NCBI GenBank assembly: GCA_009993005.1
Contig: JAACUH010000059.1
Location: 1-64,000, forward strand
Origin: Rhodobacterales bacterium
GTDB lineage: Bacteria; Pseudomonadota; Alphaproteobacteria; Rhodobacterales; Rhodobacteraceae
Direction: 5' to 3'
Length of the DNA: 64,000 nucleotides
Positions 11,843 through 34,177 of the stretch are shown piece by piece. Under the pieces are notes generated by a model. It was not told the origin of the DNA and ran no database searches. It was given only the letters and a program-made list of their open reading frames with translations. Made by a program: the position numbers and the translations under genes. How positions within the stretch are numbered: position 1 is the first letter of the stretch; each line of letters begins with the position of its first letter.

Positions 11843-13096
11843 TCAGGGCTGCCCCGCCAGCACGCGGGCGGCGTGGTCAAAGAAGGTGTCGCGCCCGAAA
11901 TTGCCGGATTTCAAGGCCAGGACCACCGCCCGCCCCTCGATGCGCACCGCCGGCACGCCGGGGTCGATCTGCGGCCCGATCTGGAGCGCCTGCGCCCCCA
12001 GCGCCTGCACCACCGCGCCCGAAGTCTCGCCCCCCGCGCAGATGATCCGGTCAAAGCCCTGTTCGACCGCAAGCACCGCGAGCCTGCCAAAGAACGCCTC
12101 GAGCGCCTGCGCGCTGGGGGCGACCCCGTGGCGCGCCTGCACGCGGGCGACCTCGGCCGGGTCGTCAGAGCTGTGAACAAGCGGGACGCCGCCCGCGTCG
12201 GCCAGCGCGGCGAGCGCCCAGTCGCAGACCGCCTCGGGCGTCTCTTCGCCCGACATGATGCGGTCAGGGTCGATCCGGCGGACCGGCGCGCCCGATTGTG
12301 CATGCGCGGCAATCTGCGTCCGCGTGGCCCGCGAACAGGACCCGGCGAGGGCAATCGCCGGGCCGCCCGCGCCGGTCCAGCCGTCCTGCGCGCCGGCAAT
12401 ACCCAGCACGGCCGGCAGGCCAAGGGCCAGACCAGAGCCACCGGTCCACAGCACCAGCCCCGCCGCGGCCTGCGCCAGCAGGTCGAGGTCACCGTCCGCA
12501 AGCGCGTCGGCCACGACCAGCGGCCGGCCCGCCGCCGCCTCGGCCGCCATCACCGCGCGGCCTTCGCCGCGCCGCAGCCGTTCCACCGGCAGATGCCCGA
12601 CCCCGTGCACGGTCTGGCGCGCCAGCCAGCGGCGGATATCGGGGTCGGTCATCGGCGTCAGCGGATGCGCCTCCATCCCGCTTTCGCTCAGCAGCCTGTC
12701 CCCGACAAAGAGGTGCCCCTGATAGACAGTGCGCCCAGTGGCGGGAAATGCGGGGCAGACCGGGATCGGCCCCGTGACCCCCAGCGCCGCGGCGAGCGCG
12801 TCGATCACCGGGCCGATATTGCCCTGCGGCGTGGAATCGAAGGTCGAGCAATATTTGAAATAGAACATCCGCGCGCCCTGCGCCCGCAGCCAGTCGAGCG
12901 CGGCAAGCGCGCCCGCTACCGCCTCCTCCACCGGGACGGAGCGCGTCTTGAGCGCGACGATCCCCGCCTGAACGCCCGCGGCAGCCGGGCGCACCGGCAC
13001 GCCGCAATATTGCACCGTCCGCATGCCGCCGCGCGCCAGCATCAGCCCCAGATCGGAGGATCCGGTAAAGTCGTCTCCGATTGCCCCGAGGATCAT
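11843..13096 (-). CDS. otnK: 3-oxo-tetronate kinase OtnK (DUF1537 family)
   Basis: A 417-residue four-carbon acid sugar kinase that phosphorylates 3-oxo-tetronate at O4. The N-terminal substrate domain shows the family signature 'GAIGDDFTGSSDLGLMLARGG' in its first 25 residues (written here in part). The C-terminal nucleotide domain has 'ICAGGETSGAVVQALG' near residues 340-355. Length is typical. It overlaps ltnD by four bases (ATGA), so the two are co-translated. Confidence 0.88.
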   Translation of the reverse strand: MILGAIGDDFTGSSDLGLMLARGGMRTVQYCGVPVRPAAAGVQAGIVALKTRSVPVEEAVAGALAALDWLRAQGARMFYFKYCSTFDSTPQGNIGPVIDALAAALGVTGPIPVCPAFPATGRTVYQGHLFVGDRLLSESGMEAHPLTPMTDPDIRRWLARQTVHGVGHLPVERLRRGEGRAVMAAEAAAGRPLVVADALADGDLDLLAQAAAGLVLWTGGSGLALGLPAVLGIAGAQDGWTGAGGPAIALAGSCSRATRTQIAAHAQSGAPVRRIDPDRIMSGEETPEAVCDWALAALADAGGVPLVHSSDDPAEVARVQARHGVAPSAQALEAFFGRLAVLAVEQGFDRIICAGGETSGAVVQALGAQALQIGPQIDPGVPAVRIEGRAVVLALKSGNFGRDTFFDHAARVLAGQP

Positions 13097-13983
13097 GCGA
13101 CACCCGGCAGGGCGAGGCCCGCCGCGCGGGCATAGACCTTGGCCACCGCAGCGTCATCCTCGCGCCCGAAGCCGGCCTCGGCGGCCGCGCGGAACCGGGC
13201 CAGCGCAGCGCGGGCGAGCACGGGGTCAAGCCCGACCTCGGTGGCGATATCGACGACGATGGCCAGATCCTTGAGCCAGATCTCGACCGCCGACAGCGGC
13301 GTATAATCGCCCTGTGCGATATGCGGCCCGCGGTTTTCGAACATCCAGGATGTGCCCGCGCAATCGGCGATGACCTCGATCACCTGCGCGGGGTCCATGC
13401 CCAGCGCGATGGCCTGTGTCAGCGCCTCGGCAGCGGCGGCGATATGGATGCCGGCAAGGTGCTGGTTGACGATCTTCATCCGGCTGGCCATGCCCGGCTC
13501 CGGCCCCAGCCGGAACACCTGCGCCGCCATCGCGTCGAGCATCACACTCGCCCGCGCAAAGGCCGCCTCGCTGCCCGAGGCCATGATGGTGAGCGCGCCG
13601 GCCCGCGCCTTGGCCGCGCCGCCCGACACCGGCGCGTCGAGCGCGAGATGCCCCATCCCGACCAGCCGCTCTGCGATGGCGGTGGCGCGGGCGGGCGGCA
13701 TCGTGGCGCAGAGCAGGAACACCGTCCCCGGCCGGGCCGCAGCGGCGGCACCGCTGTCAAACAGCGCAGCCTCGGTCTGATCGGCGTTCAGCACATAGAC
13801 CGCCACCGCATCGCATTGCGCGGCCAACGCGCCCGGCGTCGCCGCTGCCTGCCCGCCCTCCGCCGCAAAGGCGCGCATCGCGGCCTCGGCGATGTCGTGG
13901 CCCTGCGTCACCAGCCCCGCCGCGACACAGGCGCGCGCCGCACCGCCGCCCATCGACCCCAGCCCGATGATCCCCACCTTCAT
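13093..13983 (-). CDS. ltnD: Tetronate (L-threonate type) dehydrogenase LtnD
   Basis: A 296-residue 3-hydroxyisobutyrate-dehydrogenase-family enzyme. The Rossmann signature 'VGIIGLGSMGGGAARAC' is at residues 3-19, the substrate-binding 'LDAPVSGGAAKARAGALT' near residues 115-132, and the catalytic lysine in 'RMKIVNQHLAG' near residue 170. In known pathways LtnD oxidises L-threonate, and its relative DenD oxidises D-erythronate, to 2-oxo-tetronate. Sequence alone does not separate the two. It is the first enzyme gene downstream of the TRAP transporter. Confidence 0.83.
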   Translation of the reverse strand: MKVGIIGLGSMGGGAARACVAAGLVTQGHDIAEAAMRAFAAEGGQAAATPGALAAQCDAVAVYVLNADQTEAALFDSGAAAAARPGTVFLLCATMPPARATAIAERLVGMGHLALDAPVSGGAAKARAGALTIMASGSEAAFARASVMLDAMAAQVFRLGPEPGMASRMKIVNQHLAGIHIAAAAEALTQAIALGMDPAQVIEVIADCAGTSWMFENRGPHIAQGDYTPLSAVEIWLKDLAIVVDIATEVGLDPVLARAALARFRAAAEAGFGREDDAAVAKVYARAAGLALPGVA

Positions 13984-17571: not shown

Positions 17572-18986
<1,415 letters not shown>

Positions 18987-21127: not shown

Positions 21128-22210
21128 CTATTCCTCGGGCAGGTTCTCGCGAAAGATCGCCTGCAGGCGCGGCGGCAGCGGGGCATGGGTGCCTCCCCTG
21201 ACCGACGCGACAAGCGTGGCAAGCGCCTCGCGCGCTTCGGCCTTGGCGTTCTGGTCGATGACCGCGTCGAGCGTCCCGTCAAGCAGCAGCGCCTTGTTGC
21301 CCTCGGTGGCATCATGGGCAATCAGCACCACCCGCCCGTCCATGCCCCGCGACTTGACCGCGCGCGCGATGCCGCTGGTGGCGCCGCCGACATTGTAGAT
21401 CGCGGTGAGGTCGGGGTGTTTGTCGAGCAGCGCGATGGCCTCGCGATAGGCGGTATCGCGGTCATCGAGCACCTCGCGCAATTCCACGATCTGGAGGCCT
21501 GGAAACTCCTCGTGCAGGATCTGGCGAAAGCCCATCTCGCGTTCCTGATGCCCGCGATAGGACAGTGACCCGGCAAAGAGCGCGACCTTGCCCGCGGTCT
21601 GCGCGCCCAGAAACCGCCCCATGAGATAGCCGGCAAGCCGCCCCGCCTGCCGGTTGTCGGTGCCGATATAGGCGACGCGCGGCACGTTCTGGATGTCGGA
21701 TGCCAGCGTGACGATGCGTGTTCCGCGCAGCGCCAGCGCGCGGATCGCCTCGCGCACGACAGGATGGTCGAGCGCCACGATCCCCACCCCGTCAATGCGG
21801 TCGTCCATCGCGACAAGCCGCCGCGCGAGAAGCTGCGGATCGAACCCCTCGATCGTCTCGACCCGGCATTCGACGGCAAAGAGCAGCCGCGCCTGCTGTT
21901 CGATCTCGGTCTGCAGCATCCGGATGAATGCATTGGTCCCGGCCGGCAAGAGAAACGCCAGCCGGACAAAGCGCCGCTCGGGCCCATCGGAGGGGGCGGG
22001 CGTGTCAGAGAAATAGCCCAGCCTTTCGGCCACGCCCATGACGTGATCGCGGGTCAGGCTGCGCACGCCGCCACGGTTGTTGACCACCCGGTCCACAGTG
22101 GCTGACGAAACGCCGGCCTCTCTCGCTATGTCTGACAGGGTCGCGCGCAACAGGGTTTTCGCAGTCCAGCCGGGGCCGGCGGCGCTGCCCCCGGCGATGA
22201 CGTCAATCAA
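21128..22210 (-). CDS. LacI-family transcriptional regulator
   Basis: A protein of up to 360 residues. A LacI-type HTH is at residues 24-48 (TLSDIAREAGVSSATVDRVV), with the hinge and a periplasmic-binding-protein-like effector domain behind it (for example 'RVAYIGTDNRQAGRLAGYLMG'). No ATG lies before the HTH, so a TTG start is needed. TTG 22208-22210 is used here; another TTG sits about 20 codons further in. The effector domain resembles regulators of ribose/inositol-type sugar operons. It is divergent from the Gfo/Idh-MocD operon and probably controls it. Confidence 0.82.
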   Translation of the reverse strand: MIDVIAGGSAAGPGWTAKTLLRATLSDIAREAGVSSATVDRVVNNRGGVRSLTRDHVMGVAERLGYFSDTPAPSDGPERRFVRLAFLLPAGTNAFIRMLQTEIEQQARLLFAVECRVETIEGFDPQLLARRLVAMDDRIDGVGIVALDHPVVREAIRALALRGTRIVTLASDIQNVPRVAYIGTDNRQAGRLAGYLMGRFLGAQTAGKVALFAGSLSYRGHQEREMGFRQILHEEFPGLQIVELREVLDDRDTAYREAIALLDKHPDLTAIYNVGGATSGIARAVKSRGMDGRVVLIAHDATEGNKALLLDGTLDAVIDQNAKAEAREALATLVASVRGGTHAPLPPRLQAIFRENLPEE

Positions 22211-23079: not shown

Positions 23080-24171
23080 ATGATCGATCTGATGGGGTTC
23101 GCCCCTGACCCCGAGGTCCGCAGCAAAAACCTGCGGATCGGCGCCATCGGCGCGGGCATGATCATGGCGGAATGCCACCTTGCCGCCTACCGGCAGGCCG
23201 GCTTCCCCGTCGCCGCCATCGCCAGCCGGACGAAGGCGCGCGCGCAGGCTGTGGCCGACCGCTATGGCATCGCCGTCGTGCATGACACGCCCGAGGCGCT
23301 GATCGCGGACCCCGCGATCGAGATCCTCGACATCGCCTACCCGCCCGACCAGCAGCCCGCGCTGATCCGCGCCGCGCTGGCACAGCCACATATCAGGGGG
23401 ATCCTCGCGCAGAAACCGCTCGCCCTGACGCTGGCCGAGGCTATCGCCCTGCGCGATGAGGCGGCGGCGGCGGGCAAGGTGCTGAGCGTGAACCAGAACA
23501 TGCGCTATGACCAGTCGATGCGCGTGCTCAAACAGATCCTCGACCGCGGCGATCTGGGCGAGATCGTGTTCGCGCAGATCGACATGCACGCGATCCCGCA
23601 TTGGCAGGGGTTCCTTGCGGCCTATGACCGCCTGACACTCGCCAACATGAGCGTGCATCACCTCGACGTGCTGCGGTTTCTCTTTGGCGAGGTGGCCGAG
23701 ATCACGACGACCACCCGCACCGACCCGCGCACGACCTTTGCGCATCGTGACGGCATCACGGTCAGCACGCTGCGCTTTGCCTCCGGCGTGCTGGCGCTGT
23801 CACTCGAGGATGTGTGGTCCGGCCCGCGCGCCGCGGACTACAAGGACGACCAGCACATCGGCTGGCGGGTCGAAGGGACCGAGGGCACCGCCCGCGGCAC
23901 CATCGGCTGGCCCACCGGCGTGGCCTCGACCCTGTCCTATGCCAGCCGCAAGACCACCGGCGGCGACTGGGTGACGCCGACATGGGACACGATGTGGTTT
24001 CCCGACGCCTTTGTCGGCGTGATGGAGCAGTTGCAGCACGCCATCGCAACCGGCACGCCGCCCGCGCTGTCGGTGGCCGACAATGTGAAGACTGTCGCGC
24101 TGATCGAGGCGGGATACCTGTCGATGGCCGAACAGCGCACCGTCAGACTATCCGAAATATCAACAGAATGA
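23080..24171 (+). CDS. Gfo/Idh/MocA-family NAD(P)-dependent dehydrogenase
   Basis: A 363-residue sugar or cyclitol dehydrogenase. The N-terminal Rossmann signature is '[18 protein letters not shown]' near residues 22-39. The catalytic-loop lysine is in 'AQKPLALT', in the position of the EKP motif. The active-site histidine is in '[15 protein letters not shown]'. The ATG follows a strong GAGGAGAG; an upstream in-frame start is possible but lacks support. It is the first intact gene of a plus-strand operon with a DUF4432 protein, MocD- and MocE-like proteins and a PanB homologue. MocA of rhizopine catabolism belongs to the same family. Confidence 0.88.
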
Positions 24172-24591
24172 GCGCGCAGGCCGCCATCTTCCGGTCCGGC
24201 GTCTTGACCGGCTGTTTCCCCCACGGGCGCGTCATTGGCGCGCAGCGCGTCCGCAGCCACGGCCTGACCACCCGGAGCGAAGGGATGCGCGACCCGGAGA
24301 ACAGGCGGCAAGAACGGTTCGACGCGCGGGCAGGCCTTGCCTGTCGCGGGCTCGGGGCCATGGCGCGATGCGCGGGGGATCAGGGGGGCGCGCCATGATC
24401 TCTACCTGCACCGGCTGGGGCAAGGGCACGCCGACATCGTGGAACATCGGGAGAGGGACGGGTCAAAGACCTGTCTTGAGGACGCGATCCGCGCGCATGG
24501 CTTGTAAAGCCGGGCCCGCTGGCCGACAAAATGAGCCAAAGCCCACAGGGTCCGCACCCCGCGCGCGGCCCCGACCAGCCAAGGATCCGAG
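24172..24591 (+). other. 420-base gap with a possible gene remnant
   Basis: No intact gene is visible. A frame ending at the TAA near 24508 gives a plausible C-terminal protein tail (RHDLYLHRLGQGHADIVEHR, then an acidic 'CLEDAIRAHGL' end) with no start and no recognised family. An inverted repeat CATGGCGCG/CGCGCCATG encloses about 25 bases near 24359-24401. The stretch may be another deletion scar in the sugar operon. Confidence 0.3.
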
Positions 24592-25800
24592 ATGACCACG
24601 CTCTATGACCAGACCCTGACCCGCGCGCAGATCATGGCGCGCACCGGCAGCCTTGCCGCCTTTGGCGGGGTGCGGCTGATGACCTTGTCCGACGGGCTCG
24701 AGCGCGGGGTGCGGATGCTCGAGTTCCGCACCGGGTCAGGGCTGCGCTTTACCGTGCTGCTCGACCGGGGGATGGACATCGCCGAGGTCGAACACAAGGG
24801 CCGCGCGATCGGCTGGCAGTCGCCCACGGGCTTTCGCCACCCCGCCTTTTACGAACCCGAAGGCGAGGATGGGCTGGGCTTTACCCGGTCCTTCAGCGGC
24901 TTTCTGGCGACCTGCGGGCTCGACCATATCCTCGGGCCCGAGGACGTCCCCGCGCTCAACTACAACTACCCCCGCCGCGCCACCGCCCGCCACGGGCTGC
25001 ACGGGCGCATCGCCAATATTCCCGCCCGCCTCACCGGCTACGGCGAGCGGTGGGAGGGCGACCGCTGCATCCTGTGGGCCGAGGGCACCGTGGTGCAGGC
25101 CGCGCTCTTTGGCGAGGTGCTGCACCTGCACCGCCGGATCGAGGCCGATCTGGGCGGCGACACCATCCGCCTCAGCGACCGGGTGGTCAACGCGGGCTTT
25201 CAGCCGACACCGCATATGTTCTTCTACCATGTCAACATCGGCCATCCGGTGATCGACGAGGGCGCGCGCTATGTGGCGCCCCTGCGCGATGTGATCTGGG
25301 CGAGCCATGCGGAGCGCTACCGTGCGCAGGGCGTGGGCTACCGCAGCCTGCCCGCGCCGCAGATGGGTTTTGCCGAACAGGTGTGGGAGCATGACATGGC
25401 CGCCGACGCCGCCGGCCATGTGCCCGTCGCCGTCATCAACGACCGCATCGCGCTGGGGATCGAGATGACGACGCGCAAGGATCAGCTTCCCTGCGCCTAC
25501 CAATGGCAGAACTTTCAGGCCGGGCATTACGTGATGGGGATCGAACCCTCGACCCATCATGTGCTGGGCAACAATGCCGCCCGCGCACGCGGCGAGATGA
25601 TCTGGCTCGGCGCCGGCGAGGGGCGCGATTACGTGGCGGCCTTTCGGGTGCTCGACGGGGCGGATGCCATCGCCGCCGCGCAAGACCGCATCCGCGCGGT
25701 GCAGGACCAGCCCGACACCGACTTTCCCGCGCCGAGCGGCACATTCCCCCCGCTCACCGGGCGCGCACAACCCCCAGCACAAGAGGTCAAGGACGCATGA
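24592..25800 (+). CDS. DUF4432 family protein (aldose 1-epimerase-like fold)
   Basis: A 402-residue protein of the DUF4432 family, structurally related to galactose mutarotase. Typical sequence features are 'LLDRGMDIAEVEHKGRAIGW' near residues 56-75, 'GLDHILGP' and 'RHGLHGRIANIPA' near residues 135-147 with conserved histidines, and 'HMFFYHVNIGHPV' in the second half. Members sit beside Gfo/Idh dehydrogenases in sugar and uronate operons and are presumed to interconvert anomers or lactone forms. The stop overlaps the next gene's start as ATGA. Confidence 0.85.
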   Translation: MTTLYDQTLTRAQIMARTGSLAAFGGVRLMTLSDGLERGVRMLEFRTGSGLRFTVLLDRGMDIAEVEHKGRAIGWQSPTGFRHPAFYEPEGEDGLGFTRSFSGFLATCGLDHILGPEDVPALNYNYPRRATARHGLHGRIANIPARLTGYGERWEGDRCILWAEGTVVQAALFGEVLHLHRRIEADLGGDTIRLSDRVVNAGFQPTPHMFFYHVNIGHPVIDEGARYVAPLRDVIWASHAERYRAQGVGYRSLPAPQMGFAEQVWEHDMAADAAGHVPVAVINDRIALGIEMTTRKDQLPCAYQWQNFQAGHYVMGIEPSTHHVLGNNAARARGEMIWLGAGEGRDYVAAFRVLDGADAIAAAQDRIRAVQDQPDTDFPAPSGTFPPLTGRAQPPAQEVKDA

Positions 25801-26873
25801 CAGCGACCACCGATCCCCATATCCGCGACTATTCCCTCACCGGGACCGACACCGCGCGGGCCAAGGCCACGGGCCTGGCCAACGCCGAATGGTATCACAC
25901 CGACGTGCCGCGCAAGGTGATGAAGGACCTGATGCAGCGGCGCGACGGCCCGGCGATCCGCGATACCGCGATCTGGTTCGCGGTTCTGGGCCTGTCGGCC
26001 TGGGGCGGGATCGCGTTCTGGGGGACATGGGGCGCGGTGCCGTTCTGGCTGATCTATGGCGTCATGTATGGCTCTGCCTGCGACAGTCGCTGGCACGAAT
26101 GCGGCCATGGCACGGCCTTTCGCACCGGCTGGATGAATGACGTGGTCTATCAGATCGCGTCGTTCATGGTGGTGCGCAACCCGGTCACCTGGCGGTGGAG
26201 CCACGCGCGCCACCATACCGACACGATCATCGTGGGCCGCGACCCGGAAATCGCCTGCATGCGGCCGCCCAATGTCTTTCGCCTGCTGATGGCCTATGCC
26301 GGGGTGATCGACATGGCCGAGAGCATCCGCGGCATCGCCCGGCAGGCGGGCGGCACGCTGACCGACGGGGAAAAGGACTATATCCCCGAAAGCGAGCGGC
26401 CCAAGGCGATCCTTGTGGCGCGGGTGCATATGGCGATCTATGCGGCGACGCTGGCGCTGGCGCTGGCGACATGGTCCTGGATCCCGCTGATGCTGATCGG
26501 CGGCCCGCGCATCTATGGCGCCTGGCACATGCTGATGACCGGGCTGATCCAGCATTGCGGGCTGGCCGAGAATGTGACCGACCACCGGCTCAATTCGCGC
26601 ACCGTCTACATGAACCCGGTCAGCCGCTGGATCTACTGGAACATGAACTACCACGTGGAACACCACATGTTCCCGATGGTGCCCTATCACGCGCTGCCGC
26701 GCCTGCATGAGGTACTCAAACACGATCTGCCGGCCGCGAACCCGTCGATCTGGGACGCCTACCGCGAGGCGATCCCCGCCGTGCTGCGCCAGGCGCGCGA
26801 GCCCGACTATTACATCCGCAAACCCCTGCCGGCCACGGCGCAACCCTACAAGATGGATACAGTGAATGTCTGA
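25797..26873 (+). CDS. MocD-like membrane oxygenase (fatty-acid-desaturase fold)
   Basis: A 358-residue protein with the three histidine clusters of the membrane di-iron desaturase/hydroxylase superfamily: HECGH (100-104), HARHH (136-140) and HVEHH (286-290), plus several hydrophobic helices. In rhizobial rhizopine catabolism, MocD of this family works with the Rieske ferredoxin MocE and a reductase to remove an O-methyl group. Here a Rieske ferredoxin gene follows with an 8-base overlap, and a MocA-family dehydrogenase lies upstream. I infer a hydroxylase or O-demethylase acting on a methylated sugar or cyclitol, rather than a lipid desaturase. The start was set at ATG 25797 because it overlaps the previous stop and matches the family N-terminus. 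Confidence 0.8.
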   Translation: MTATTDPHIRDYSLTGTDTARAKATGLANAEWYHTDVPRKVMKDLMQRRDGPAIRDTAIWFAVLGLSAWGGIAFWGTWGAVPFWLIYGVMYGSACDSRWHECGHGTAFRTGWMNDVVYQIASFMVVRNPVTWRWSHARHHTDTIIVGRDPEIACMRPPNVFRLLMAYAGVIDMAESIRGIARQAGGTLTDGEKDYIPESERPKAILVARVHMAIYAATLALALATWSWIPLMLIGGPRIYGAWHMLMTGLIQHCGLAENVTDHRLNSRTVYMNPVSRWIYWNMNYHVEHHMFPMVPYHALPRLHEVLKHDLPAANPSIWDAYREAIPAVLRQAREPDYYIRKPLPATAQPYKMDTVNV

Positions 26874-27183
26874 CCCCGTTTGGACCGATGTCTGCGACCT
26901 GGACGAAATCGACGAAGAAGATGTGATGCGCTTTGACCATGACGGGCGCACCTTTGCGATCTACCGCGCGCCGGATGGCACGCCCTTTGCCACCGACGGG
27001 CTCTGCTCGCACGAACATGTGCATCTGGCAGGCGGGCTGGTGATGGATGACACCATCGAATGCCCCAAGCACAACGGCCGGTTCAACTATCGCACCGGGG
27101 CCGCGCTGCGTGCGCCGGTCTGCGTCAACCTTGCCACCTATCCGGCCCGCATCGCGGACGGGCGTATCGAAATCCTGATCTGA
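26866..27183 (+). CDS. MocE-like Rieske [2Fe-2S] ferredoxin
   Basis: A 105-residue soluble Rieske protein. The cluster ligands are Cys47 and His49 (GLCSHEHVHLAGG) and Cys66 and His69 (ECPKHNGRF). It has no membrane anchor or signal peptide, so it is a bacterial-type electron-transfer ferredoxin for an oxygenase. It overlaps the MocD-like gene by 8 bases, a strong hint that it reduces that enzyme. No reductase (MocF) gene lies in the window, so reducing power must come from elsewhere. Confidence 0.9.
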   Translation: MSDPVWTDVCDLDEIDEEDVMRFDHDGRTFAIYRAPDGTPFATDGLCSHEHVHLAGGLVMDDTIECPKHNGRFNYRTGAALRAPVCVNLATYPARIADGRIEILI

Positions 27184-27193
27184 CGAGGCCCCC

Positions 27194-27994
27194 ATGACCC
27201 GCACCCGCCCCCTGACCATTGCCGAGTTGCGCGCCCGCAAGGGGCGGGGCCAGCTCACCATGCTGCGCGTCCTCACGCTCGACGAGGCGGCGGCGGCCGA
27301 GGCGGCGGGGATCGACATCGTCTCTGCCCCCTTCGATCTGGTGAGCCACCCGCGCTACCGCACCGTCGCCCCCGGTCTGTTCAGCATGACCGGCGTGGAC
27401 CACCGCGAGGCCGGCACGCGCGAGGATTACCTGCGTTTCGCCGGGCGCGCGCTGCTGGCGGGGGCGGACGCGCTCTATTGCTCGGCCGGGCTCGACACCG
27501 TGCGCTATCTGGCGGGCGAACATATCCCGGTGGTGGGTCATGTCGGCCTTGTCCCCAGCCGCGCCACCTGGACCGGCGGTTTTCGCGCGGTGGGCAAGAC
27601 GGCGGACAGCGCCCTGGCGCTTTACCGCGAATGCCTGGCCTATGAGGAGGCCGGGGCCTTTGCTGTCGAGATCGAGGTCGTGCCACCCGAGGTCGCCAGC
27701 GCCATCAGCGCGCGGATGAAATCGCTGCTCTTGTGGTCGATGGGCGCGGGCGCGGGCTGCGATGCGCAGTATCTCTTTGCGATGGACATTCTGGGCGATC
27801 ACACCGACCACATGCCGCGCCATTCCAAAGTCTATCGCAACTTTGCCGCCGAATATGCGCGCCTCCAGCAGGAACGCATCGCGGCCTTTTCCGAATTCAA
27901 GGCCGATGTTGACGCTGGCGCCTTTCCCGAACCGCGCCATCTGGTGCAGATGGACGCGGCCGAGCTTGCCGCCTTTCACGCGGCGCTGGACTGA
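27194..27994 (+). CDS. PanB-family (ketopantoate hydroxymethyltransferase-like) protein, atypical
   Basis: A 266-residue TIM-barrel protein with the PanB layout: 'PVVGHVGLVPSRATWTGGF' near residues 112-130, 'EEAGAFAVEIEVVP' near residues 151-164 (the Glu161 position corresponds to the catalytic Glu of E. coli PanB), and a C-terminal PanB-like 'FSEFKADVDAGAFPEPRHL'. Aligned by eye, the metal ligands fail: the Asp84 position is Gly67 (an Asp follows two residues later) and the Glu114 position is Ser97. Its place in a catabolic operon after a probable demethylase also argues against pantothenate synthesis. It may handle a one-carbon unit or cleave a branched acid in reverse; both are speculation. 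Its 3' end overlaps the convergent uxuB-like gene by 19 bases. Confidence 0.75.
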   Translation: MTRTRPLTIAELRARKGRGQLTMLRVLTLDEAAAAEAAGIDIVSAPFDLVSHPRYRTVAPGLFSMTGVDHREAGTREDYLRFAGRALLAGADALYCSAGLDTVRYLAGEHIPVVGHVGLVPSRATWTGGFRAVGKTADSALALYRECLAYEEAGAFAVEIEVVPPEVASAISARMKSLLLWSMGAGAGCDAQYLFAMDILGDHTDHMPRHSKVYRNFAAEYARLQQERIAAFSEFKADVDAGAFPEPRHLVQMDAAELAAFHAALD

Positions 27995-29418
27995 CCCGCG
28001 AGCCGCGCCACCGCCGCCCGTGCGCCCTGTGCCCAGAGCAGCTCTGCCGCCTGTGTGACCGGCGCCCGCAGGCGCGGGGCGAGCGCGGTGGGAAAGACCT
28101 CTGTCACGCCGAGCAGCGCCGCAACCTTGCCGGCAGGCGTCGCGGCGCTGTCTGACACCGCGCGCAGGCGGGCGGCGAGCGGGTCCTTGACCTCGATGGG
28201 GCGGCCGGCCTCGTCGATCCCGCCGACATAGCGCATCCAGCCCGCCACCACGAGGCAGAGCCCCGGCGCGGGCCGGCCCGCATCGAGCGCGGCGGTGAGC
28301 GTGCCAAGAAGGCGCTGCGGCAGTTTCTGGCTGCCATCCATCGCGATCTGCCAGGTCCGGTGACGGATCGCGGGGTTGGCATAGCGGGTGGCGAGCGCCG
28401 CGGCATAATCGGTCAGCCGCACAGCCGGCGGGGCGGTGACGGCGGGCATGATCTCGGCCCAGAGGCGTTGGACAAAAGCCGCATAGGCGGGGTCGGCCAC
28501 GGTGTCGGCTATCGTCTCATGCCCGCCCAGATAGCCCAGATAGGCCAGCGCGGAATGCGTGCCGTTGAGCATCCGCAGCTTCATATGCTCAAAGGCGGTC
28601 ACGTCGCCCACCAACTGCGCGCCAACAGCGCCCAGATCGGGCCGCGCGCCTGCGACGAAATCATCCTCGATCACCCATTGGCGAAACGGCTCGTGCAGCA
28701 CCGGCGCGGCATCCTGATGGCCGGTAAGCCGCTCGACCATGGCGATGTCGGCGGAGGTCGTGGCCGGGGTAATGCGGTCCACCATCGTCGCCGGAAAGCG
28801 GCAGTTGGCCACGATCCAGTCGGCCAGGGCAGGGTCGATGCGGCGGGCAAGATCGGTGACGATCGCGCGCACCAGGCGACCGTTCTCGGGCAGGTTGTCG
28901 CAGGTGAGCACGGTAAAGGGCGCAAGCCCCGCGCGATGACGCAGCGCCAGCGCACGCACGATGAACCCCGGCGCCGAGACCGGCAGCGGATGCATGAGGT
29001 CATGCGCGATGTCGGGGTGATCGGGGTTGAGCAGCCCCGTGGCCGGGTTGTGGCAATAGCCCTTTTCGGTGACGGTCAGCGACACGATGCGCACGGCAGG
29101 GTCGGCCATCGCCGCCAGCACCGCCTGCGGATCTTCGGGCGCGACCAGCACGCCGGTCAGCGCCTCGATCATCCGCGCATCAGACCCGTCGGGCCCCAGC
29201 GTGACCGCCGTATAGGCCCAGCCCTGCGGCGCGAGCGCGTCGCGGGTGCGCGCGCTTTGCAGCGACACGCCGAGGATCCCCCAGTCGCCGCCCGACGCCG
29301 CCATCGCCTCGGCCACGAAGGGGCAGACAAAGGCGCGGGCAAAGGCGCCCAGCCCCAGATGCACGATGCCTGTGGCGGGGCGTGGCGCGTTGCTGCGGGT
29401 CAGGCGGGGGGCGGTCAT
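27976..29418 (-). CDS. Mannitol-dehydrogenase-family oxidoreductase, probable fructuronate reductase
   Basis: A 480-residue polyol dehydrogenase of the long-chain mannitol dehydrogenase family. N-terminal nucleotide-binding 'HLGLGAFARAF' is near residues 20-30. The catalytic-region lysine lies in 'EHMKLRMLNGTHSALAYLG', with the family's conserved Lys-x5-Asn-x2-His pattern. UxuB-type enzymes reduce D-fructuronate to D-mannonate. The uxaC gene lies 16 bases upstream on the same strand, which supports that assignment over mannitol or arabinitol dehydrogenase. Confidence 0.82.
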   Translation of the reverse strand: MTAPRLTRSNAPRPATGIVHLGLGAFARAFVCPFVAEAMAASGGDWGILGVSLQSARTRDALAPQGWAYTAVTLGPDGSDARMIEALTGVLVAPEDPQAVLAAMADPAVRIVSLTVTEKGYCHNPATGLLNPDHPDIAHDLMHPLPVSAPGFIVRALALRHRAGLAPFTVLTCDNLPENGRLVRAIVTDLARRIDPALADWIVANCRFPATMVDRITPATTSADIAMVERLTGHQDAAPVLHEPFRQWVIEDDFVAGARPDLGAVGAQLVGDVTAFEHMKLRMLNGTHSALAYLGYLGGHETIADTVADPAYAAFVQRLWAEIMPAVTAPPAVRLTDYAAALATRYANPAIRHRTWQIAMDGSQKLPQRLLGTLTAALDAGRPAPGLCLVVAGWMRYVGGIDEAGRPIEVKDPLAARLRAVSDSAATPAGKVAALLGVTEVFPTALAPRLRAPVTQAAELLWAQGARAAVARLAGQSSAA

Positions 29419-29434
29419 GGGCGTGGTCCTTTGC

Positions 29435-30841
29435 TCAGAGCTTGTAGGCGGCCTTGGCCAGCCGGTAGGTGAGGTCATGCGCGACCTCGGGCGCCTCGTC
29501 AGCGTGAAGCCGCCCCGTCGCCACCAGCCCGGCAAGAAAGGCGCAATCGACACGCCGCGCGACATCGTGGCGCGCGGGGATCGAACAGAACGCCCGCGTG
29601 TCGTCGTTGAACCCCACGGTGTTGTAGAACCCTGCCGTTTCGGTCGTCATCTCGCGAAACCGCATCATCCCCTCATAGCTGTCGTGAAACCACCAGGGCG
29701 GGCCGAGCCGCAGCGCCGGATAGACCCCGGCCAGCGGCGCAAGTTCGCGCGCATAGCTTGTCTCGTCGAGGGTAAAGACGATGATCGTGAGGTCCGCCCG
29801 CCCGCCGACCGCGTTCAGGAGCGGGCGCAGGGCGGTGACATAGTCAGTGCGGGTCGGGATGTCATAGCCCTTGTCCCGGCCAAAGCGCGCCGTGACGGCG
29901 GCGCTGTGGTTGCGCATCGACCCGGGGTGGATCTGCAACACCAACCCGTCATCGAGGCTCATCCGCGCCATTTCGGTCAGCATCTGGCCGCGAAAGGCAT
30001 CGGCCTCGGCCGGGGTGCAGGTGCCCTTGAGTGACTTCGAGAACAACGCCGCCGCATCGGCCTGCGCCATGTCCTCGGTCCGGGCGGTAGCGTGCCCATG
30101 GTCCGACGAGGTCGCGCCAAAGCTCTTGAAGAACGCGCGGCGGGTGCGATGCGCGGCGAGGTAGCCCGCCCAGGTCATCGTATCCTCGCCCGTCAGCGCG
30201 GCCAGTTGCGCGACGTTGTCGGCAAAACCGGCAAACTCCGGGTCCACCACGGCATCGGGGCGATAGGCGGTGATGACACGGCCGCCCCAGCCGCTGTCAC
30301 GGATCATGCGGTGCCAGCGCAGGTCGTCGAGCGCGCTTTCGGTGGTGGCGATCGCCTCGATATTGAACCGCTCGAACAGCGCGCGGGGGCGAAAGGCGTC
30401 TTGCCGCAGGCAATCGTCGATCCGGTCATAGACCGCATCCGCCGTCGCGGCCGAGAGCCTGTCGGTGACGCCGAACACCTCTTGCAGCGCGTGATCGACC
30501 CAAATCCGCGAGGGCGTGGCGCGAAACAGATGATAGTTCGCCGCGAAAAGCCGCCAGACCGCGCGCGGGTCGGTCTCGACCTCACCGCCATCGGCACGCG
30601 GCACGCCCAGCGCCTCTAGCGGGATGCCCTGCGACTGCAACATGCGGAACACATAGTGGTCGGGCGTCACGAAAAGCTGCGCGGGATCGGCAAAGGGCGC
30701 GTTCTCGGCAAACCAGCGCGGGTCGGTATGGCCATGCGGGCTCAGGATCGGCAGGTCGCGCACGCCGGCGTAAAGGTCACGCGCGATGGCCCGCACGCGC
30801 GGGTCAGCGGGAAAGAGCCTGTCGTCATCAAGCAGCTTCAT
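29435..30841 (-). CDS. uxaC: Glucuronate (uronate) isomerase UxaC
   Basis: A 468-residue enzyme, near the usual 470, that isomerises D-glucuronate to fructuronate or galacturonate to tagaturonate. Signature segments are 'ILSPHGHTDPRWFAEN' with two metal-site histidines near the N-terminus, and 'GFNDDTRAFCSIPARHD' near the C-terminus. ATG 30839-30841 gives the family-typical N-terminus (MKLLDDDRLFPADP). Directly upstream of this start is a 13-bp tandem repeat that fills the position where promoter and leader would be expected. Confidence 0.93.
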   Translation of the reverse strand: MKLLDDDRLFPADPRVRAIARDLYAGVRDLPILSPHGHTDPRWFAENAPFADPAQLFVTPDHYVFRMLQSQGIPLEALGVPRADGGEVETDPRAVWRLFAANYHLFRATPSRIWVDHALQEVFGVTDRLSAATADAVYDRIDDCLRQDAFRPRALFERFNIEAIATTESALDDLRWHRMIRDSGWGGRVITAYRPDAVVDPEFAGFADNVAQLAALTGEDTMTWAGYLAAHRTRRAFFKSFGATSSDHGHATARTEDMAQADAAALFSKSLKGTCTPAEADAFRGQMLTEMARMSLDDGLVLQIHPGSMRNHSAAVTARFGRDKGYDIPTRTDYVTALRPLLNAVGGRADLTIIVFTLDETSYARELAPLAGVYPALRLGPPWWFHDSYEGMMRFREMTTETAGFYNTVGFNDDTRAFCSIPARHDVARRVDCAFLAGLVATGRLHADEAPEVAHDLTYRLAKAAYKL

Positions 30842-30850
30842 TCTGTGCCT

Positions 30851-30915
30851 CGCCTCTGTGCCACGTCTCTGTGCCACGTCTCTGTGCCACGTCTCTGTGC
30901 CACGTCTCTGTTCAT
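30851..30915 (-). repeat. Five-copy 13-bp tandem repeat in the uxaC leader
   Basis: On the plus strand the unit CGTCTCTGTGCCA occurs five times in a row; the three inner copies are exact, and the outer two (30851-30863 and 30903-30915) carry substitutions. It ends only 9 bases from the uxaC start codon. On the coding strand each unit contains TGGCACAGAG. A change in copy number would move any upstream promoter relative to the gene in 13-base steps. Confidence 0.9.
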
Positions 30916-30965
30916 CGTCCTTGGCCCCACCCAGCAGACTGCCTCGAGCAGCCCGACGCAAGGGG

Positions 30966-31628
30966 TCAACCCATCCCCAGACTGCGGTTGAGCGCATTGG
31001 TCAGGTGGCGCCCGATCGCGGCTTCTGCGGCGTCGGCGTCGCGGCGTTTGCAGGCGGTCAGCACCTCCACATGCTCGGCAATCGACACGCAGGCCGCCAA
31101 AGGATAGACCTTTGCGCTCACCCGGTTGATGCGGGTCATCAGGCGCAGCCGCCGATAGGAAGCATCGACAAGCTCGTTGCCGAGGCTCGCGACAAGCGCC
31201 GGATGAAACACCTCTTCGACCTCGGTCAGACGGTCGAACACGTTCTGATCCGGCGGCAGCGTCGCGAATTCCGCCGACAGCGCCGCGTGGCGGGCGATGA
31301 GGTCGTCCAGCGTCGCAGGGTCCACCCCGATGGCAAAGCTGCGCGCGGCGGGCCGTTCGATCATCAGGCGGAACTGGATCGTGGCGCGCAACAGGTCGGT
31401 CGTGGGCTTGATCAGCTCGATCCCCGCACGGGGGTGGACCTTGACCAGCCCGTCGGCCTCGAGAACCTTGAGCGCGTCACGCACCGGGCCGACCGGAACA
31501 CCGGCAAGCGCGACCAGCCAGCCCTGGCTGACCCGCGCCCCCATCGGCACCCGCGCGTCAAAGAGCGCCTGCAGGATGCGCTCATAGGCGATTTCGGAGA
31601 GGAGCGGCGGCGCGACATGGGGCTTCAT
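30966..31628 (-). CDS. GntR-family (FadR subfamily) transcriptional regulator
   Basis: A 220-residue regulator. The N-terminal winged HTH (residues about 12-75) includes 'VSQGWLVALAGVPVGPVRDALKVLEADGLV' in essence, and an all-helical FCD effector domain follows with histidines that usually bind metal or acid ligands. It is divergent from the dehydratase-ABC operon and downstream in orientation toward uxaC. It is therefore well placed to control the hexuronate genes on both sides, like UxuR/ExuR regulators. Confidence 0.87.
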   Translation of the reverse strand: MKPHVAPPLLSEIAYERILQALFDARVPMGARVSQGWLVALAGVPVGPVRDALKVLEADGLVKVHPRAGIELIKPTTDLLRATIQFRLMIERPAARSFAIGVDPATLDDLIARHAALSAEFATLPPDQNVFDRLTEVEEVFHPALVASLGNELVDASYRRLRLMTRINRVSAKVYPLAACVSIAEHVEVLTACKRRDADAAEAAIGRHLTNALNRSLGMG

Positions 31629-32908: not shown

Positions 32909-32941
32909 CGGGGAATACCTTTGTCGATGGGAGGAAACATC

Positions 32942-34177
32942 ATGACATTCAAGGCTCTACTGATCGCGACCACGGCCTGCCTTGGCGGGCAGGCGATGGC
33001 GCAAACGCTGACCATATGGGACTGGAAATCGGGCGACCCCGTCGCGGCGAGCTACTTTGACGCCGTGCGCGAGGCCTTTGCCGCGGCGCATCCGGGTGTC
33101 ACGCTCAACTTTGTCAACCAGCCGATCGACCAGTATTACACGCTTCTGGGCACCGCGCTGGCCTCGGGTCAGGGGCCGGATGTGTTCCTGCTCAACGGCG
33201 GCGCGCAGGCCCGCGCGCGGATGGATGCGCTTACCGATCTCACGCCGCAAGCGGAGGGTCTGGTTGGCCTGACCGAGTTCCAGGATGCCGATGGCGCCGT
33301 GCGCGCGCTGCCGATCTCGATCCAGGGTTTTGTCGTCTATTACAACAAGGACCGCTATTCCGAGGCCGGGCTCGACCCCGAAGCGCCGCCGCAGACCTGG
33401 GCCGAGCTTGCGAGCGCCTGCGAGGCGATCAATGCGGCGGGTGCCGTCCCCTGCTTTGCGCTGGGCAACAAGGAAGGCTATGGCGCCGAATTCTTCTTGT
33501 CCTCGGTCGGCGCCTCGATGCTGAGCGAGCAGGCGCAGCAGCAGTTCGCCACCGGCGATCTGACCTGGTCCAGCCCCGAGATTGCCGCGATCCTGCAGGC
33601 CTGGGTCGATACGCAGGGCATGGGCTGGTATCAGCCGGGGGCCAATTCGACCGCCAAGTTCATGGATGAATACGAGATGTTCATGCGCGGCGACGCGGCC
33701 AATACCATCGGCCTGCTGTCGGACGTGGCGCATTGGAAGCAGTTCGAGGACTTCCTTGGCGCCGAGAGCATCGGCGCCTTCCGCCACCCCGCGCCCGAGA
33801 TGATCGCGGACCATGCGATGATCCCCGTCGCGGGCGGGATCGGCTATGGCGTGAACGCGGCGGGCGGCAATGTCGATCTGGCCACCGCGCTGGTCGAAAC
33901 GCTGGCCAGCGCCGGCCCGATCCAGGTCTTTGTCAACGATGCGGGCGTGGTGCCGGCGAATACGGCCGTCGATACCTCGGGCCTCGCCAGCCCGACGGCA
34001 GGCACGATCCTGGGTTGGCTTGACAGCTCTGGCGTCACGATGGCCCATGCCAATGTCACCGCCGAAGAGCTGGCCGAATGGCATCGCCAGTCGCAACTGC
34101 TGCTCAACGGCGAGACGACGGTCGAAGCCGCCGCCGCGCGGATGGATGACGTGCAAAAGGCCGCCCACGGCGGTTGA
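32942..34177 (+). CDS. Sugar ABC transporter substrate-binding protein (family 1)
   Basis: A 411-residue extracellular solute-binding protein. The signal peptide is clear (hydrophobic residues 4-16, cleavage after QAMA near residue 20), followed by 'QTLTIWDWKSGDP', the usual opening of the MalE/UgpB class. The binding-fold pattern 'DVFLLNGGAQARARMDALTDLTP' lies near residue 82. A GGGAGG ribosome-binding site precedes ATG 32942; a start seven codons earlier would lie in front of this site and is rejected. The ligand is probably a hexuronate, an oligouronide or the dehydratase substrate. Confidence 0.9.
   Translation: MTFKALLIATTACLGGQAMAQTLTIWDWKSGDPVAASYFDAVREAFAAAHPGVTLNFVNQPIDQYYTLLGTALASGQGPDVFLLNGGAQARARMDALTDLTPQAEGLVGLTEFQDADGAVRALPISIQGFVVYYNKDRYSEAGLDPEAPPQTWAELASACEAINAAGAVPCFALGNKEGYGAEFFLSSVGASMLSEQAQQQFATGDLTWSSPEIAAILQAWVDTQGMGWYQPGANSTAKFMDEYEMFMRGDAANTIGLLSDVAHWKQFEDFLGAESIGAFRHPAPEMIADHAMIPVAGGIGYGVNAAGGNVDLATALVETLASAGPIQVFVNDAGVVPANTAVDTSGLASPTAGTILGWLDSSGVTMAHANVTAEELAEWHRQSQLLLNGETTVEAAAARMDDVQKAAHGG

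Follow-up and report, generated by a model that had tools for sequence, protein, structure and literature searches.

What does a relative of PanB do immediately downstream from a MocD/MocE-type demethylase? The question is raised by five genes in a 64,000-nucleotide stretch of contig JAACUH010000059.1 (the window) from a Rhodobacterales bacterium (assembly GCA_009993005.1; 3.4 Mb in 196 contigs). An earlier note on this DNA had proposed an undescribed demethylation pathway, and profile scans identified all five of its genes, on the + strand and in the order that it gave: a Gfo/Idh dehydrogenase, a DUF4432 protein, the oxygenase MocD, the Rieske protein MocE, and a PanB relative that we refer to as PanB'. 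We consider the chances even that the genes belong to an operon that breaks down an O-methylated cyclitol or sugar, in which PanB' would join the toxic formaldehyde released by demethylation to tetrahydrofolate (THF). The general proposal of the note, an oxidative MocD/MocE demethylase with a PanB relative that may handle the one-carbon unit, is supported by synteny, by purU and folD neighbors, and by the rhizopine (moc) loci, in which mocDEF, panB', and purU stand together.

PanB' has the fold of PanB and has lost the residues of its metal site. The AlphaFold model of PanB' (pLDDT 92) was closest to ketopantoate hydroxymethyltransferase (KPHMT), the PanB enzyme (PDB 1m3u, 3vav; Z scores of 21-24 in VIA-align over six KPHMT entries), followed by phosphoenolpyruvate (PEP) mutase and methylisocitrate lyase (Z of ~14-15). 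H136 and E181, both shared with PanB, are kept in 144 and 143 of 144 aligned PanB' sequences, respectively. In contrast, D84, K112, and E114 are kept in none of the 144, and their columns hold G (140 sequences), Y (142 sequences), and S or A (133 sequences). The D45-S46 loop is unaligned, falling in a gap in this alignment, and D was found at that column in 11 of 74 sequences in another alignment. The reference was 15 true PanB proteins of related genomes, 14 or 15 of which keep the residue at each site. We take D45, D84, K112, and E114 to be the metal- and ketoacid-binding site of PanB, and because the residues of this site are gone, the PanB-like one-carbon-folate chemistry that had been suggested for PanB' is unlikely as it was stated. 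The family has near-invariant residues of its own (141 to 144 of the 144 sequences; window numbering), including R56, D92, Y95, W126, E159, Y193, F195, R209, and H210.

The loss of these residues argues against PanB' being a true KPHMT encoded by a spare panB, a reading that would fit its match to PF02548, its nearest solved structures, and the plasmid records that annotate it as 3-methyl-2-oxobutanoate hydroxymethyltransferase. We reject this reading as having almost no chance of being correct. PanB' scored 89.9 bits against TIGR00222 (cut-off, 207.55), it is not found with panC, and a long branch divides it from the two true PanB proteins in a quick tree of 92 rows (the other 90 being PanB'). 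Furthermore, the same genome has a canonical panB (PF02548, 342.8 bits) that adjoins panC on a different contig (C161), and PanB' is not the only PanB of its genome, a possibility that the note had raised against its own proposal.

The five-gene grouping is not due to chance. Our compared set consisted of the window and 152 fetched loci (12 plasmid loci, 60 regions around PanB' hits, and 80 further loci), with 154 PanB' places that were reduced to 146 by removing copies. The 60 regions were hand-chosen from the upper part of a list of 111 PanB' hits, with some hits skipped, and the set is therefore biased to closer relatives. Final neighbor counts were made by six-frame tblastn because scoring genes by codon position missed some mocD and mocE genes; an all-against-all gene call was discarded because it was dominated by antisense frames in GC-rich DNA. 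All five genes, with Gfo at least 65% identical, were found on one strand within 9 kb at 36 of the 146 places (window included).

PanB' accompanies DEMETHYLASES: an oxygenase of the MocD or sterol-desaturase type was present within 6 kb at 127 of the 146 places. It was not seen within that distance at the other 19. At seven of these, the available sequence extends less than 2 kb in one direction, and two have the oxygenase just past 6 kb (mocD in L051 and the sterol-desaturase type in L095). Among 295 genomes of the family, PanB' hits at 60% identity or more had MocD within 10 kb in 15 of 17 cases, and MocD at 60% identity or more had PanB' within 10 kb in 43 of 67. Two Bradyrhizobium plasmid loci (L042 and L043) combine a different oxygenase type with the same PanB' partner; there, PanB' is found with genes for a ribokinase-like protein, a sterol-desaturase-family oxygenase, a Rieske protein, a triosephosphate isomerase (TIM)-barrel protein, and a flavin adenine dinucleotide (FAD) reductase. 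In a Sinorhizobium alkalisoli plasmid (L041, 7956-9781), panB' is followed by a gene annotated as iolG, and an oxygenase was not found within 6 kb.

PanB' might instead not be a one-carbon catalyst and might assist the oxygenase and the ferredoxin as their partner or in their maturation. mocE is within 6 kb of panB' at 117 of the 146 places, nine of which have no oxygenase within 6 kb. In three genomes (G283, G201, and G097), mocE-panB' (L065, L077, and L066) is separate from mocD, which is found at a different locus (L205, L206, and L209) with no mocE match. However, a catalytic-type H/E pair is preserved in the barrel in addition to the family-specific residues, mocD-mocE loci exist in genomes that have no PanB' hit, and the linkage to purU and folD would be left unexplained. 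We consider a maturation role improbable.

Rhizopine catabolic loci carry panB'. Locus L040 is a genuine moc locus, as its regulator scored 751 bits against the rhizopine-MocR model NF052281 (cut-off, 650), and it contains mocDEF-panB'-purU. We examined nine moc loci from the 14 plasmid records that had MocR at 80% identity or more, and all nine had mocD-mocE-mocF-panB'-purU consecutively on one strand; folD matches were present in five of the nine (four partial). In L221, which has MocR (47% identical), MocA, and iolE and no mocDEF, panB' and purU were also absent from the 17.4 kb searched, and L222, where MocR was matched more weakly (46%), gave no match to any other moc gene that was searched for. 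At three of the moc loci, those of S. meliloti BL225C and KH46 and R. leguminosarum RCAM2802, panB' was matched in two pieces (L216 and L220, ~12389-13113; L219, ~12097-12841), and its frame may therefore be broken there.

MocDEF is known, and the view of the note that the whole module is undescribed is not supported. The demethylating role of MocDEF is based on published genetic work, as reported in papers that cite it. DUF4432 is named in two papers, the titles of which concern other subjects. The accessible parts of the moc literature make no mention of panB' or purU at rhizopine loci. The catabolic units are given as mocDEF, mocR, mocBA, and mocC in the available text of PMC10107442, the main text of which (Figure S1 being outside this scope) contains neither 'formyl' nor 'hydroxymethyltransferase'. 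LacI (FixV-like) genes adjoin mocDEF in rhizobia according to the accessible part of PMC3538637, whose authors read this as an inositol-derivative system and whose text (Figure 2 being outside this scope) contains neither 'panB' nor 'hydroxymethyltransferase'. In the open-access literature, with supplements and figures outside the scope, we did not find PanB' described as a partner of MocDEF, the loss of its metal-site residues, or its link to purU and folD, and these are the new elements here.

The proposed reaction sequence starts with MocD. MocD would receive electrons via MocE and a MocF-type reductase, the gene for which is elsewhere, and would hydroxylate the methyl group, and the resulting hemiacetal would break into the free alcohol and formaldehyde. 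The carbon skeleton would be handled by Gfo/Idh, DUF4432, and, in intact operons, a TIM-barrel enzyme. PanB' would join the formaldehyde, or the hydroxymethyl group itself, to THF, giving 5,10-methylene-THF that FolD and PurU, adjacent in some lineages, could carry on to formate. Gene content, synteny, the loss of the metal-site residues, and the kinship with MocDEF were observed directly, and we infer the demethylation by the window operon, each catalytic step assigned to PanB', and the nature of the substrate.

The folate genes are linked to panB' in several lineages, a point of contact with the FolD-PurU route of formaldehyde oxidation. purU is within 6 kb at nine of the 146 PanB' places and folD at four, with further moc loci besides. 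The identity to the purU of L037 was ~50% in Mesorhizobium and 79-82% in moc loci, and the order of folD and purU is swapped in L102, suggesting more than one origin of the link; on the PanB' tree, five purU-linked rows need five changes. These differences suggest that purU may have been recruited separately beside panB'. The window's genome encodes PurU, and there was no match in it to the formaldehyde-activating enzyme Fae (PF08714; the control search was positive in 2 of 14 named genomes). The function proposed for PanB' would be similar to that of Fae with folate replacing methanopterin, and PanB' is predicted to be a PanB-family TIM barrel.

According to the available text of PMC7073904, formaldehyde and THF condense spontaneously too slowly for effective assimilation by this route in vivo. 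That study considered whether E. coli PanB might catalyze the condensation promiscuously, and its authors went no further than suggesting that Fae might have a folate-using variant. The first step with tetrahydrofolate is described as spontaneous in the part of PMC8879981 available. In the open-access literature, we found no description of a THF-dependent formaldehyde-activating enzyme of the PanB' kind. The PanB' family, which travels with O-demethylases and adjoins purU or folD in some lineages, is a concrete candidate for the folate-using counterpart of Fae.

In a phylum-wide sample, PanB' (E ≤ 1e-60) was found in 18 of 398 genomes, all of the same class as the window. We tentatively propose, with somewhat less than even confidence, that PanB' is the first THF-dependent formaldehyde-activating enzyme, a metal-free PanB paralog that would channel formaldehyde from membrane di-iron O-demethylases to folate and would be an overlooked fixed part of the catabolism of rhizopine and related O-methyl cyclitols or sugars across the Alphaproteobacteria. 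If this is correct, the rhizopine locus, which is employed in designs for plant-microbe signaling (PMC6668481 and PMC10107442, in the text available), would gain two or three genes, and a role would be assigned to many proteins that are currently labeled as pantothenate enzymes.

Several results weigh against formaldehyde transfer by PanB'. In a less selected count, which took all 111 PanB' hits at E ≤ 1e-25 in the 295 family genomes and did not count partners of the sterol-desaturase type, MocD was within 10 kb of just 51. Conversely, PanB' was lacking within 10 kb of 24 of the 67 mocD places in these genomes (60% identity or more), and the genome had no PanB' hit at all for 15 of the 67. Adjacency of purU is limited to the nine places given above. 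The oxygenase type needs at least six changes on the PanB' tree (78 labeled rows), and when the oxygenase type was shuffled 200 times, the changes averaged 8.8 and were never fewer than 6, indicating that the type tracks the tree only moderately; both this count and that for purU rest on the quick tree, in which 29 of the 89 inner branches are unsupported. To our knowledge, the THF site of PanB is too poorly defined for its retention in PanB' to be checked. Lastly, in the portion of PMC7073904 available, deletion of panB and ltaE left the formaldehyde-THF-dependent growth of E. coli unchanged, and any such activity would therefore have to be new in PanB'.

Also unfavorable are seven actinobacterial PanB' proteins (62-69% identical; L121, L115, L125, L127, L133, L136, and L155), for which no mocD or mocE was seen in records that extend more than 6 kb on both sides in L121 and L127 only. 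In L121 (6702-10825), panB' overlaps a gene for an AMP-binding (acetyl-CoA-synthetase-like) protein by 4 bp, and a GFA-family gene is nearby. These loci, together with the match of the fold to PEP mutase and methylisocitrate lyase, would suit a different function, in which PanB' is an aldolase, lyase, or isomerase that acts on the demethylated skeleton with a barrel like that of PEP mutase or isocitrate lyase and has nothing to do with the one-carbon unit. The retention of H136 and E181 makes acid-base chemistry likely and would also fit a skeleton enzyme. We nonetheless regard this function as unlikely, if less so than a maturation role. The metal-binding residues of PanB, as we take them to be, are lost, PanB' accompanies two oxygenase types, and purU or folD adjoins panB' in several lineages.

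Comparison of L199 with L131 also argues against a skeleton enzyme. L199, from a genome (G183) that has no PanB' hit, is collinear with L131 at 71-98% identity across a regulator, DUF4432, mocD, mocE, a short-chain dehydrogenase/reductase (SDR), Gfo, a TIM barrel, and ATP-binding cassette (ABC) genes. Only panB' is missing, and the gap is between mocE and the SDR gene, where L131 has panB'. Because L199 is otherwise collinear, PanB' is not an obligatory step for the carbon skeleton there. The simplest reading is that panB' was lost and that formaldehyde is removed spontaneously or in a glutathione-dependent manner.

Returning to one-carbon transfer by PanB', the oxygenase that would supply the formaldehyde is MocD-like, and the lipid desaturase by which the note would have been refuted is not borne out. 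The histidine boxes of the window's MocD (HECGH at 100, HARHH at 136, and HVEHH at 286) contain eight histidines that are present in all 115 aligned MocD proteins, and we take their role to be the binding of a di-iron center. The window's MocD is 62-66% identical to the MocD proteins of six Rhizobiales loci and 80% identical to that of L045. Lipid desaturases (DesA/DesB) were considered and rejected, with scores far below the cut-offs of the NCBIfam desaturase models (DesB, 30 bits; cut-off, 500). There was no mocF match adjacent to the operon in the 20.5 kb of the window compared; a full-length MocF homolog (43% identity) is encoded on another contig (C84), and mocF is within 6 kb at 25 of the 146 PanB' places. 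The mocD of a mannopine plasmid belongs to mannopine breakdown and is a different use of the name, as given in the accessible text of PMC6341043.

The window copy of the operon is eroded. Gfo, DUF4432, and mocD occur together at 38 places, 37 of which also have a TIM-barrel homolog of at least half length; the window was the sole exception. This gene is xylose-isomerase-like (PF01261 in L157). In the window, its broken remnants are in the 420 bp between the Gfo and DUF4432 genes, and remnants of ABC transporter genes (solute-binding protein and permease) are in the region 5' of Gfo (Table 1). ABC genes are beside the enzymes in two intact loci scanned with Pfam, L118 (solute-binding protein, permease, and ATPase) and L157 (MalK-type ATPase and ribose-type genes). 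Because the window is the only place without the TIM barrel and has these broken remnants, we conclude that the operon has been eroded and that its genes are, judging from the sequence, the half that survives of an originally larger operon for the degradation of a sugar or cyclitol. The presentation of the five genes in the note as a whole pathway is thus not supported. An assembly fault could also have caused the deletions. Coupling by overlaps, also claimed for these genes, holds for DUF4432/mocD (4 bp) and mocD/mocE (8 bp) but not for panB', which begins 10 bp past mocE.

The extent of this erosion makes it a serious possibility, although not the one that we favor, that the locus is a dead relic, with its transporter and TIM-barrel genes broken and its five survivors no longer making up a pathway. 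The absence of the TIM barrel in the window alone fits this, as do the best-scoring other matches in the genome, which were 29% (TIM barrel) and 33% (permease) identical. On the other hand, none of the five surviving frames is interrupted, their identity to those of L045 is 76-83%, and a second ABC-type binding-protein gene (32921-34177; 68% identity; family not scanned) is nearby and is kept beside panB' in L045 and L112.

Table 1. Genes and gene remnants of the operon in the window, with the divergent regulator.
Feature	Positions	Strand	Evidence
LacI-family regulator	21128..22210	-	PF00356 and PF13407; divergent from the operon
Remnant of ABC solute-binding protein, last 56 aa	22591..22758	+	tblastn, residues 368-423 of the L118 solute-binding protein, 39% identity, E 4e-9
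Remnant of ABC permease, first 46 aa	22841..22978	+	72% identity to L045 permease, E 2e-16
Gfo/Idh/MocA-family dehydrogenase	23080..24171	+	PF01408, PF02894, PF22725
Remnant of AP_endonuc_2 TIM-barrel gene, N-terminal 29 aa	24186..24272	+	52% identity to L112, E 2e-7
Remnant of same TIM-barrel gene, C-terminal ~52 aa	24367..24504	+	46% identity, L112 residues 252-303, E 4e-7
DUF4432 protein, aldose-1-epimerase-like	24592..25800	+	PF14486, 328 bits
MocD-like membrane di-iron oxygenase	25797..26873	+	PF00487, 130 bits
MocE-like Rieske [2Fe-2S] ferredoxin	26866..27183	+	TIGR02377, 164.1 bits (above the cut-off of 136.15)
PanB' (PanB fold without PanB metal-site residues; proposed one-carbon acceptor step)	27194..27994	+	PF02548, 125.3 bits

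The window is not a rhizopine moc locus by gene content. The order of MocD and MocE is shared between the window and the moc loci, which act on 3-O-methyl-scyllo-inosamine, and in both a PanB'-family gene is downstream. However, the genes examined in the window include LacI but not MocR (the neighboring regulators scanned were LacI and GntR/FCD), it has Gfo and DUF4432 in place of MocA, MocB, and MocC (MocB and MocC were not searched for separately), and it has no adjacent MocF, purU, or folD. LacI genes adjoin many related mocD loci, and the FixV-type LacI/mocDEF loci in the available text of PMC3538637 share LacI, a pfam01261 TIM barrel, and mocDEF neighbors with the operon studied here. The window LacI is 32% identical to the LacI beside mocDEF-panB' in S. 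meliloti (L033).

An O-methyl cyclitol such as pinitol or ononitol is a plausible substrate of the rhizobial LacI loci, based on the accessible portions of PMC3538637, PMC8730688, and PMC5789663. The window's genome encodes IolD (800.7 bits; cut-off, 715). The window Gfo is 83% identical to that of L045 and did not reach the cut-off of the IolG model (91 bits; cut-off, 355). The DUF4432 protein matched PDB 3ty1 ('hypothetical aldose 1-epimerase'; E 7e-26). The suggestion that the substrate is of algal origin was not supported, as we found nothing in this analysis that bears on it.

We also considered 4-O-methylglucuronate, since a fructuronate-reductase-like gene and uxaC adjoin panB' in the window. 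Three results weigh against it: the syntenic relatives L045 and L112 have genes for GntR, MR_MLE, and binding proteins after panB', there was no uronate-gene match in L045 or L112 over the 19-21 kb compared, and a pfam01261-type TIM-barrel gene is present in all 37 intact relatives. The genes beyond panB' (27976-31628) encode the fructuronate-reductase-like protein, UxaC (glucuronate isomerase, over the cut-off), and a GntR regulator, and are convergent to panB'. Two tandem repeats were noted in the window: a 13-bp repeat (30842-30911; 5.4 copies) inside the start region of the uxaC frame, and a 12-bp repeat (4.9 perfect copies; 18924-18982) that encodes PQHP repeats where a response-regulator-like frame begins.

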